The translations under genes were made by a program, and so were the position numbers. From positions 2,666,001 to 2,730,000 of the forward strand of contig CP036296.1 in assembly GCA_007751255.1 (NCBI GenBank): a DNA stretch of 64,000 nucleotides, written 5' to 3'. The first letter of the stretch is position 1; each line of letters starts with the position of its first letter. This DNA is from Engelhardtia mirabilis (GTDB lineage Bacteria; Planctomycetota; UBA1135; GCA-002686595). The notes under the pieces are model-generated. The model saw only the letters and a program-made list of their open reading frames with translations, searched no databases and was not told where the DNA came from. Below are positions 2 through 54,725 of this stretch, one piece after another.

Positions 2-406
2 GACCTGCGCCGCTCGCCGCGCCTGGCCCTGGCGAGCGCGCGCCTCACCGGCCAACAACTCGCCGCCCTCGATCGCGACGCCCCTGAACGCATCGCCGTG
101 CCCAGCGGCAGCCGCCTGAAGGTCAACTACGAGCCCGGCCGTGCGCCCCAACTCGCCGCGCGCATCCAGGAGCTATTCGGCCTGCGCGCGACCCCGCGCG
201 TGGGCGGCGGGCGCGTGCCCGTGGTCATGCAGTTGCTCGCGCCCAACGGACGGCCCCAACAGGTCACCGACGACCTGGAGTCCTTCTGGGCCAAGACCTA
301 CTTCGACGTGCGCCGCGAGCTGAAGCGCCGCTATCCGAAGCATTCCTGGCCCGAGGATCCACTCAACGCCGAGGCCGAACGCAGACCGGGCCGACGCCGC
401 AAGTGA
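2..406 (+). CDS. hrpB: ATP-dependent helicase HrpB, C-terminal fragment (5' end outside window)
   Basis: The gene enters from the left edge, so only the last 134 residues are visible. They read as the HrpB C-terminal domain: a 'VPSGSR' stretch, then 'GGRVPVVMQLLAPNGRP', 'VTDDLESFWAKTYFDVR' and 'RYPKHSWPEDP', a signature I recognise from the C-terminal region of bacterial HrpB (a DExH-box RNA helicase-like protein). The tail ends in a basic 'RRPGRRRK'. The helicase core motifs are upstream of the window and cannot be checked. HrpB proteins are cytoplasmic nucleic-acid helicases whose cellular role is poorly defined. The next gene converges from the right after about 40 bases. Confidence 0.85.
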   Translation, partial: DLRRSPRLALASARLTGQQLAALDRDAPERIAVPSGSRLKVNYEPGRAPQLAARIQELFGLRATPRVGGGRVPVVMQLLAPNGRPQQVTDDLESFWAKTYFDVRRELKRRYPKHSWPEDPLNAEAERRPGRRRK

Positions 407-50750: not shown

Positions 50751-51044
50751 GGCGCTGGGCGAAGGTGGTTGTCCCCTCTAGCCCCTTGGACGGCCGTCGC
50801 CTACCGGTGAGTTCCACAGAGCGGGGTCCGAGGGCAGGATTTGCACCCAGGCCCCCCCCTGGCGCGGGTTCCGAGACGGCCGACCGGCGCTCTGGGCGAC
50901 CCAGGGCCGGGGATCGGGTCTGGCGGGCGGCGGGACCGAGGCGCATCATCCCGGAGACGAACGCGGGTTCCCTCGCCCCCCGGAAGCGTCCCGCCGAGCG
51001 ATCCCGCTCACGGTCGGGGCCCGCGACAACCGACAACCGACACC

Positions 51045-52037
51045 ATGAGAAGACTCGCGGCACTACTCGCTGTGCCCTTGCTGGCCATCGGGCTGGCGGG
51101 CCCGGCCGACGCCCAGGTGGGCAAGGTCGTCCCCGACAACATTGAGCTCGACGATTTCGCGAACACCGATGCGAACGATTTCGGCGACTTCACCGGGCGC
51201 ACGATCCTGATCGAATTCTTCGCCTACTGGTGAGGCCCCTGTGGGGCCTCGGTTCCGCACCTGAACGAGCTTCAGGCTGAGTACGGAAGCCGGGGACTCA
51301 CGATCATTGGCGTGACCAATGAAGGCAAGTCCGACACCGAGAAGTGGATCAAGGACAAGGGAGCCACCTACCCCTACGCGTACTTCAAGGGCAGCGACCT
51401 GCAGAAGTTCGCGGAGATGAAGGGCTGGCCCCACGCCATCCTGATCAACCCCGAGGGACGCGTGGTCTGGGCCGGTCATCCGGGCAACCTGGGCGGAAGC
51501 ATCATCGAGCAGAACCTCGACGGCGCCCTGCCGGTGCCGCTGTTCGACTTCCCCAAGAAGGCGAGCAAGATCAAGAAGGCCATCCAGGACCGCGAACTCG
51601 CCGTGGCCCTGGCCGAAGCCAAGGAGTACGAGGCCGCGGGTGAAGAGCTCGCGGTGGAGATTCGCTCGGCGGTCGAGACGCTGATCTCCTCGCGGGTCGA
51701 CTCCCTCAAGAAGGCCCACGAGAAGGGCGACTTCATGACCCTGGTCGATCGCGGCCCTGACCTGGTCAAGTCCCTGGACGACCTGCCCCAGGCGGCGGAG
51801 ATCCAGGCGCTGCTCGACCAAGTGGACGAGGACGACGACGCTCAGGAGGTCGTCTCCGCCCAGCGCGCCATCGCGAAGATGCGCGAGGGGCTGGAGAAGC
51901 TGAAGAAGAAGAAGGAAGTCGACAAGCTGGTCGAGAAGCTCGAGCAGCTGTCGGAAGAGTTCAGCGGCTCATTCGCCGCCGAACAGGCGCGCGACCTGAT
52001 GGCCGAGTTGACTCAACTTCGACCCCAGCTCAAGTGA
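51045..52037 (+). CDS. Thioredoxin-fold selenoprotein (Sec at in-frame TGA), exported, with coiled-coil C-terminus
   Basis: Read through the TGA at 51231-51233, this is one 330-residue protein. A signal peptide ('RRLAALLAVPLLAIGLAGPA') leads into a thioredoxin/TlpA fold: 'GRTILIEFFAYW', residue 63 = TGA, then 'GPCGASVPHLNELQAEYG', 'GLTIIGVTNEG' and 'GWPHAILINPEGRVVWAG' (with the cis-Pro). W-TGA-G-P-C aligns exactly with the W-C-G-P-C redox motif, so Sec replaces the first Cys. Frame and family similarity continue without a break on both sides. Residues 180-330 are a charged helical/coiled-coil region ('EGLEKLKKKKEVDKLVEKLE'). A conventional caller would split it into a 62-residue stub and a fragment starting near 51312. 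The alternatives, a nonsense mutation or sequencing error, are less likely given the SECIS-like structure. Confidence 0.85.
51247..51295 (+). promoter_or_regulatory. Candidate bacterial SECIS hairpin
   Basis: Downstream of the TGA the RNA can fold with an apical stem CCTGAA (51260-51265) / TTCAGG (51271-51276) closing the loop CGAGC, which has G at its second position. A lower stem pairs 51247-51257 with 51284-51295 (eleven pairs with one bulged G, one pair being U-G), separated by an asymmetric internal loop. The apical loop begins 32 bases after the TGA, within the spacing I recall for bacterial SECIS elements. A competing perfect 8-bp hairpin, GAGGCCCC-TGT-GGGGCCTC, starts inside the TGA itself (51232-51250). 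Confidence 0.6.
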
Positions 52038-53597: not shown

Positions 53598-53726
53598 GGT
53601 CGTGGATTTGGGGTCCACGAAACATAGTCCCGATGGGGCACCTGCGACACCGCCCCGATCGCGTCGGGTCGGCGCTCGCACCCAGGCGCCGGACCACTCG
53701 CATTTCTCGACCGAAGGATGACTCCG

Positions 53727-54725
53727 ATGTTCCTGCACACGCTGGCGGCCCCCGCCCGGGCCGCCGCCGCCGCGCTGGCCCTGTCCGCCCTTTGCCCCGC
53801 CCAGGTGGGCATGGAGATGATCGAGCCGCCCCTGCGCGAGTTCGGCAATACCGCCGCCGCCGAGTACCAGGACTACCTCGGGCGGGCCGTGCTGCTCGTC
53901 TTCGTGCAGCCCGGGGAGCAGACCTCGGATCAGCTCGTCTCACACTTGAACGTGCTGGTCGACACCTACGGTTCGCGGGGCCTCTCCGTCGTCGCCGTCA
54001 CCCCCGAGGACGACGAGGCCGAGCTGCGCACGTGGATCGAGGTCCGCCAGGCGAAGTTCGGCTTCGCCCTGATGCGCGGAGAGGAGCTGCAGCGCTTCGC
54101 GCTGATCGCCTCCTATCCCCACGCCTTGCTGGTGGATCCGGCGGGCACCGTGGGTTGGTCGGGCTACGGCGGACAGGTCACGGCGGACGTGATCGCACCC
54201 CACATCACCGGCGCCCTGCCGCGGCCGATGTTCGATTGGCCCCGCGACGCCGACAAGGTCGCCCAGGAGATCCGCAAGGGGCGACTGGCGCAGGCACTGG
54301 AGGCGGCGACTGCCGTCAGGTCCGAGAATGGCGACCTGGGCACCGAACTGGTCGAGTCGGTCAAGGGCTTGGTGACCTTCCGCGTCGAGCGACTCCGCGC
54401 CGCGCGAGCCAGCGGCGACTACGCGCGGGTTCTGAACGAAGGCGACGACACGGTCCGCATGCTCGAAGGCCTGCCCCAGGCTGCGGACGTTGAGGCGCTG
54501 GTCGAAGAAGTCGAGGGCGACGACGCCGCAGTCGAGATCGCCGGGGCCCAGCGCGACGTCGCGCGCCTGCGCGGGCGCTTCGACAAGCTCAAGAAGAAGC
54601 GCGACGCCGACAGTCTGGTCTCGAAGTTCGAACGCCTGGCCGCCGACAACGTCGACAACCACGCCGGCGAGGATGCGAAGCGCGCTCTGGACGAGCTCAA
54701 GCGCCTGCGTATCGGCTTGCAGTGA
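53727..54725 (+). CDS. Thioredoxin-fold paralogue of the selenoprotein with a lost active site
   Basis: A 332-residue exported protein (signal 'ARAAAAALALSALCPAQ'). It aligns along its length with the selenoprotein at 51045: 'GRAVLLVFVQPGEQTSDQLV' against 'GRTILIEFFAYW-Sec-GPC', 'YGSRGLSVVAVTPEDDEAEL', 'SYPHALLVDPAGTVGWSGYG' and the same acidic helical C-terminus ('RDVARLRGRFDKLKKKRDAD'). At the active site the ungapped alignment puts Glu in place of Sec and Ser in place of Cys, so it cannot do thiol/selenol exchange. A binding or regulatory role is likely. The ATG at 53727 has AAGGA eight bases upstream; an ATG at 53718 overlaps that site. Confidence 0.82.
   Translation: MFLHTLAAPARAAAAALALSALCPAQVGMEMIEPPLREFGNTAAAEYQDYLGRAVLLVFVQPGEQTSDQLVSHLNVLVDTYGSRGLSVVAVTPEDDEAELRTWIEVRQAKFGFALMRGEELQRFALIASYPHALLVDPAGTVGWSGYGGQVTADVIAPHITGALPRPMFDWPRDADKVAQEIRKGRLAQALEAATAVRSENGDLGTELVESVKGLVTFRVERLRAARASGDYARVLNEGDDTVRMLEGLPQAADVEALVEEVEGDDAAVEIAGAQRDVARLRGRFDKLKKKRDADSLVSKFERLAADNVDNHAGEDAKRALDELKRLRIGLQ

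Follow-up and report, generated by a model that had tools for sequence, protein, structure and literature searches.

The predicted selenoprotein gene and its product

The analyzed window, a stretch of 64,000 nucleotides, covers positions 2666001-2730000 of contig C1 in the 6.95 Mb, two-contig genome of Engelhardtia mirabilis. All window features described here lie on the forward strand. A frame of 330 amino acids (51045-52037) runs from an ATG to a final TGA, the true stop, and contains one internal stop only, the TGA at 51231-51233 (codon 63). The original prediction had placed a lone in-frame TGA on the first Cys of a W-C-G-P-C motif within a continuous thioredoxin-fold frame, and this was borne out: when codon 63 was read through, the sequence was FFAYW-U-GPCGASVPHLNEL, with the putative selenocysteine (Sec) in the first position of U-G-P-C, and the 330-codon frame was otherwise open. 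Ordinary ORF calling split the gene into 50841-51233 and 51312-52037, the two fragments that had been foreseen.

The read-through protein starts with a signal-peptide-like stretch (MRRLAALLAVPLLAIGLAGPADAQ; 51045-51116, judged by eye), and the family alignment showed similarly hydrophobic N-termini in its relatives. The thioredoxin-fold domain (51120-51470, residues 26-142) matched AhpC-TSA (PF00578) with 48.6 bits (gathering cut-off 26) and Redoxin (PF08534) with 44.8 bits (cut-off 26.6); the Pfam cut-off of Thioredoxin_8 was likewise passed. A charged C-terminal region of approximately 150 residues (about residues 177-330, 51573-52034), the part originally described as a long coiled coil, followed, conserved in the family at low identity; its residues 183-321 had a weak likeness to positions 211-349 at the end of the NCBIfam model NF041382 (VPGUxxT type 1). 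The window protein passed the cut-off of no NCBIfam model. The nearest solved structures by sequence were ResA- and DsbE-like oxidoreductases (PDB 4nmu, 3gl3 and 1st9). Judged from its sequence, the gene almost certainly encodes a secreted thioredoxin-like selenoprotein of a ResA/TlpA-like UGPC type. From the fold, the UGPC motif and the leader, we infer that the protein most likely acts as a disulfide reductase or isomerase of the cell envelope.

A paralogue of equal length with the same C-terminal region lies 1.7 kb downstream (53718-54725). It has no TGA and carries QPGEQTSD in place of UGPC, and is thus predicted to be redox-dead. At L033, L061 and L047, too, a second family copy lies close to the first. 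ARAGORN detected no tRNA in the 64-kb window; the Sec genes sit elsewhere in the genome.

Distribution of the family in Planctomycetota

A family match was found in 150 of the 151 genomes searched. When the family alignment was used as the query, matches at E up to 1e-25 came from 145 of the class's 154 genomes. Among the matches listed class-wide, an in-frame TGA occurred one or more times in 137 of 150 and was absent from 13, one of the latter (on G071) starting past the TGA site. Across the phylum, a match at E up to 1e-40 was present in 144 of 392 genomes, many of them in other classes, and the TGA was present at most places among the matches listed. Exactly one internal TGA was present in 72 of the 76 collected family sequences and none in the remaining four. 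The codon alignment comprised 70 of the 76, leaving out the four sequences without TGA and the distant own-genome members L004 and L005; the TGA occupied the same codon in 70/70 and was preceded by Trp in 69. Three of 72 flanks were dropped from A2, and four of 70 with indels from A3. In homologues without TGA, codon 63 was mostly Cys. A chance nonsense mutation, which had been called improbable at the outset, is hard to reconcile with a TGA in the same codon of every aligned relative, and the check for Cys or TGA at codon 63 came out in favor of Sec. With the TGA at one codon and TGA-bearing matches across the phylum, the predicted selenoprotein family is spread widely in Planctomycetota. No family member passed a cut-off in the NCBIfam search. 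L330 and L331 each had a second TGA-bearing family match, with the motif IHUEPCI and no recognized hairpin.

The Sec machinery of the genome

All four genes for which a search had been proposed (selA, selB, selC and selD) were present. The tRNA-Sec scored 70 bits with RF01852 (cut-off 47), and ARAGORN independently called a SeC tRNA with anticodon tca; this independent call carries weight because 5 of 14 control genomes also passed the RF01852 cut-off. The scores of selA (385 bits), selB (313 bits, in an ORF of 762 aa) and selD (318 bits) were each above a cut-off that 2/14 controls exceeded. The selD gene adjoins selA and has its own in-frame TGA. The Sec system of the genome is complete.

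Further TGA-bearing redox genes were found in the same genome: a paralogue of the window selenoprotein (C1:168618-169574), a W-U-G-P-C protein (C1:780775, L005), an R-U-P-S-C protein (C1:3801362) and a peroxiredoxin (C1:3562488, L098). Counting selD and the window gene, the genome has at least six selenoprotein candidates. Relatives of selD were matched in 77 of 81 genomes, with an in-frame TGA at 74 of the 77 places; one of the three places without TGA starts past the site. None of the findings that had been set beforehand as speaking against a selenoprotein (missing Sec genes, unrelated residues at codon 63, an assembly error) came true, and the selenoprotein reading is supported. What the original prediction overlooked was the spread of the family across the phylum and the unusual putative SECIS.

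A conserved hairpin 77 nt from the UGA

Synonymous codon use in the family showed unusual constraint over codons 64-71, with a stronger effect over codons 85-96, and the gene's opening codons stood out too. Codons 87-93 form a hairpin of the family pattern UC-N-U-Y-GG [CGUGA] CC-R-R-N-GA, which we call P3. In the window gene it reads UCAUUGG-CGUGA-CCAAUGA (51304-51322; +73..+91 relative to the UGA, loop +80..+84). When all column pairs of codons 45-135 were tested in 63 sequences, the P3 pairs +75x+89 and +77x+87 ranked first and fourth. The other top column pairs mostly reflected splits between the two main clades and were taken as background; no outer closing helix around P3 appeared among the first 60 pairs, which besides the two P3 pairs held only such clade-split background. 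In 66 sequences, 91.6% of the cells of the 7-bp helix were paired and 50 cells were changed on both sides, values reached in 0 of 500 shuffles. Sliding the partner strand by 1-3 columns lowered pairing to 16-61%. Pairing probability was 0.53-0.65, compared with about 0.1 in synonymous shuffles (62 sequences, 20 shuffles).

P3 was complete in 53 of 83 TGA members vs. 4 of 112 homologues without TGA, most of the latter distant. Two Cys genes, L353 and L195 (the latter on the L110 contig), kept a perfect P3 with a CGUGA loop; the link between P3 and the TGA is therefore not absolute. L195 is a close Cys paralogue and one of the four homologues with complete P3 and no TGA. In L195 and L353 the hairpin seems to be a remnant left after Sec was recently exchanged for Cys. 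Three distant Cys proteins had 7/7 pairs at the P3 position with other loops. The loops of the 57 genes with the hairpin at this position (far-type) were CGUGA in 38, CGUGU in nine and CGUUG in six.

In the main text of PMC13188914, the consensus bacterial SECIS (bSECIS) has a stem of 4-16 bp, an apical loop of 3-9 nt with G in the first two positions and then G or U, and a spacing of 16-37 nt from UGA to apical loop; it normally adjoins the UGA. The 7-bp stem and 5-nt loop of P3 lie within these ranges and the loop follows the G and G-or-U pattern, but the distance from UGA to loop is 77 nt in sequence, roughly double the permitted maximum. An Rfam search returned no SECIS match; two weak archaeal snoRNA matches were dismissed as chance. 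A covariance model, R1, gave high scores in the own genome only for the window gene and its paralogue (C1:169323-169421). It was dropped as evidence of structure because coding conservation enters its score, and it also retrieves Cys homologues.

Similar loops were found in other selenoprotein genes of the clade. The peroxiredoxin hairpin had a loop that was mostly CGUGAUC; of the 26 genes located, 24 placed the loop motif at +24 (12% in resampled sequences), a SECIS-like and normal spacing of 21 nt. A motif served to locate these 26 of 30 loci; L261 was placed wrongly but is counted in the 26. In selD, a GU loop was present at +35 in 20 of the 24 genes located among 30 (resampled 14%). The located TPGU peroxiredoxins (L098 and relatives) carried TTC-CGT-GAT-CGA, in which the Arg codons CGT and CGA were nearly invariant; both are codons that the selenoprotein family seldom uses, and in the peroxiredoxins they apparently serve to keep the SECIS hairpin. 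The loop motif that P3 has in common with the peroxiredoxin hairpin is the one hint of SelB binding.

Exchange of near and far hairpins

The 83 distinct TGA genes were sorted by rules that were fixed after this discovery set had been seen. Only the far hairpin was present in 57, only a nearer GU-loop hairpin in 16 (near-type), both in four and neither in six; by comparison, 84% of codon-resampled sequences had neither, 12% far and 3.5% near. Under a stricter CGU[GU] rule the counts were 55 far, 10 near, two both and 16 neither. Among TGA genes without the far hairpin, 16 of 22 thus had a nearer one (e.g., gaggugc-CGUGCC-gcaccuc at +20), and the two positions tended to exclude each other (Fisher p = 5e-9, kinship ignored). 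All seven P3 pairs were found in 0 of 16 near-type genes vs. 50 of 57 far-type genes. A quick tree, in which 18 of 80 inner branches were open, required at least seven near/far changes. The pair with both hairpins under the strict rule, L058 and L062, is sister to the far-type genes L050 and L053.

The near loops of L005 (+41) and L085 (+44) fell slightly past the normal range. In L005 (C1:780775), the loop of the hairpin GGAGCU-CGUGC-AGCUCC occupies +41..45. The gap back to the UGA holds a strong hairpin, GGUGAG-AUGC-CUCACC, an arrangement that may be a smaller version of the bridging proposed below for the window family.

P3 is probably the SECIS of the window gene. This reading rests on its stem and loop, on the loops of the clade's peroxiredoxins and selD and, as the most telling point, on the near/far exchange.

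Hairpins between the UGA and P3

No common structure was predicted by RNAalifold for the region next to the UGA (-6..+62), and a fixed hairpin there (+9..13 x +24..28) had no covariation above 500 shuffles. As both tests were null, a SECIS adjoining the UGA was dropped for far-type genes. The window gene has a strong GC-rich 8-bp hairpin at 51232-51250, GAGGCCCC-UGU-GGGGCCUC, which includes the GA of the UGA codon and competed in the folding model; it could block or tune decoding.

Two other helices were detected in the gap. The strands of P1 lie at +17..+25 and +62..+70 in the family register (51248-51256 and 51293-51301 in the window gene), and P2 is an apical hairpin inside P1 (+38..+51, 51269-51282). 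The longest P1 pairing in the window gene comprised eight pairs, +16..+23 (51247-51254) with +57..+64 (51288-51295); this shifted register would leave 29 nt, with P3 perfect, and one fold of the gene preferred P2 at 51261-51275. Across 62 sequences, P1 had a pairing probability of 0.21-0.35 vs. 0.01-0.04 in 20 synonymous shuffles, and P2 (+38..42 with +47..51) 0.33-0.53 vs. 0.09-0.24. The number of cells changed on both sides was above all 500 shuffles for P1 and P2 alike. In a fixed register, 66% of P1 cells were paired; the register varies. At least six P1 pairs were formed in 47 of 57 far-type genes of the discovery set (resampled mean 16.2, maximum 24, 200 runs) and in 4 of 16 near-type genes (resampled 4.6).

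In 39 of the 47 far-type genes with P1, 0 to 4 nt separated the end of its 3' strand from P3, so the two helices could stack. With P1 folded, 54 nt (+17..+70) leave the path and the P3 loop comes to lie about 23 nt behind the UGA, similar to the 21 nt of the peroxiredoxin gene. The effective spacing was 18-36 nt, a range imposed by the limits of the search; once these were widened it was 13-45 nt, with 31 of 43 genes at 19-28. That P1 and P2 bridge the gap and set the distance is somewhat favored by these pairing patterns.

Predictions in a hold-out set

Four predictions were written before 40 regions with and 20 without an in-frame TGA were fetched from other classes of the phylum, and the class rules were applied unchanged. 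The regions yielded 43 TGA genes and 21 genes without TGA; one alignment gapped at the site was dropped. The TGA genes comprised 16 far, 15 near, two both and 10 neither, i.e., a hairpin in 33 of 43 (19% in resampled sequences). By contrast, a hairpin was present in 1 of 21 genes without TGA (resampled 6%). Of the 16 far genes, 15 had the loop motif at +80 or +81 and one, L307, at +75; near positions ranged from +20 to +42. Near and far again tended to exclude each other (Fisher p = 0.0016, kinship ignored). At least six P1 pairs were found in 13 of 16 far genes (resampled mean 4.1, maximum 9) and in 7 of 15 near genes (resampled 5.4, maximum 10); one gene without TGA was too short for the P1 test. 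The four predictions held, with near-type genes not free of P1-like pairing and 10 TGA genes in neither class. L320 and L322, from other classes, showed a third putative SECIS position in the same family, a hairpin with a CGUGA or CGUGC loop and its motif at +42.

Proposed mechanism and competing explanations

The sequences themselves show the UGA, a set of Sec genes, conserved covarying hairpins and the near/far exchange, and from these we infer the following course. SelB and tRNA-Sec would decode UGA 63 as selenocysteine, and SelB would bind P3 (+73..+91) rather than a hairpin adjoining the UGA. The intervening RNA would fold into P1 with P2 at its tip, the 3' strand of P1 ending a few bases before P3, and the folded RNA would bring P3 to a spacing usual in bacteria, approximately 20-28 nt behind the UGA. 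In relatives, the SECIS would have moved to the nearer position, some genes holding both. As a whole, this account of an exported UGPC selenoprotein with P3 as SECIS, a P1-P2 bridge and near/far moves is the best explanation, and we hold it with good confidence.

TGA 63 might have arisen through faulty sequencing or, in a gene under decay, through a recent nonsense mutation. Decay does occur in the family, as the downstream copy lost its redox motif. However, the frame is otherwise intact, the 70 relatives with one TGA carry it at the same codon and only 4 of 76 family sequences have none; in other classes, 43 of 64 hold-out genes had the TGA at this site, although a TGA had been the selection criterion for 40 of the 60 regions. 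An assembly error, raised with the original prediction, is excluded by the same homologues, which already refute the error or nonsense reading, and we give it practically no chance. Hardly more credible is a selenium-free decoding in which a suppressor tRNA or a reassigned code inserts Cys, Trp or Gly at the UGA. The frame would be open whatever residue the TGA encodes, but the genome has the SeC tRNA with selA, selB and selD, the sole internal TGA of the window gene falls on the redox Cys while a TGA also terminates the same gene, and selD and the peroxiredoxin relatives carry a TGA as well.

A more serious, though still unlikely, competitor to P3 as SECIS is an ordinary, poorly conserved hairpin near the UGA acting as the working element, with P3 serving as a translational pause for export or folding, or in mRNA stability. 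The position described as normal for bacterial SECIS elements in the main text of PMC13188914 fits this proposal, as do the stable folds by the UGA in individual genes, the window gene included, and the synonymous constraint on codons 64-71, part of which can also be explained by the P1 strand at +17..+25. Against it stand the absence of covariation in the near hairpin tested (+9..13 x +24..28), the match of the P3 loop to that of the clade's peroxiredoxins, and the restriction of all seven P3 pairs to far-type genes (0/16 near-type vs. 50/57).

If the displaced-SECIS account is true, bacterial Sec insertion does not need a SECIS close to the UGA, a case that the 16-37 nt rule does not cover. 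With P3 as SECIS, the published spacing rule would be too strict, as far-type members of a phylum-wide family fail it, and relatives with near, far and both elements would form a natural series of element movement inside a coding sequence. SelB binding and distance setting would be split over two separately mutable hairpins; therefore, the question of ribosome distance would be directly testable. Beyond the window gene, we consider it probable that this Planctomycetota family has a modular, position-mobile SECIS, in which a SelB hairpin at +80 is delivered to the ribosome by a co-folded bridging hairpin, and which has hopped several times between this site and nearer ones of the same gene via two-SECIS intermediates.

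Comparison with known systems

A literature search over listings, abstracts and mainly open-access papers returned neither a bacterial SECIS at such a distance nor an account of the window selenoprotein family. The term "planctomyc" is absent from the body text of two surveys of bacterial selenoproteomes, one of 2016 and one of 2026 (PMC13188914). Selenoproteins of two other planctomycetes, fdhA and fmdB among them, are described in PMC4807772.

Table 1 of PMC13188914 includes UxxC thioredoxin-fold entries (Prx-like PF00578, thiol-disulfide isomerase-like cd02966 and Redoxin PF08534). The window protein resembles them in its thioredoxin fold with Sec first in UxxC; unlike them, going by the table's descriptions, it has 330 amino acids with a conserved C-terminal region. 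Overlap of the window family with these entries at the superfamily level is likely. Long thioredoxin-like (seleno)proteins are also modeled by NF041382, which 17 of 52 family members matched at E up to 0.01, and NF041054 (WAxxUGC_long), which 49 of the 52 matched. However, the Sec motif of the window family differs, and the window protein remained far under the cut-offs (20.8 of 350 bits for NF041382 and 36.8 of 300 bits for NF041054). With the ResA/TlpA/DsbE thiol-disulfide oxidoreductases it shares the thioredoxin domain and the envelope leader, but it has Sec for the first Cys and approximately 150 more C-terminal residues, and its 58.9 bits with the ResA model NF002854 were below the cut-off of 170. 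At the RNA level, P3 is like a bSECIS in its 7-bp stem and its 5-nt loop, with a G in the first two positions and then U. It is unlike a bSECIS in lying 77 nt away, in the second covarying hairpin that fills the gap, and in a position that shifts among relatives.
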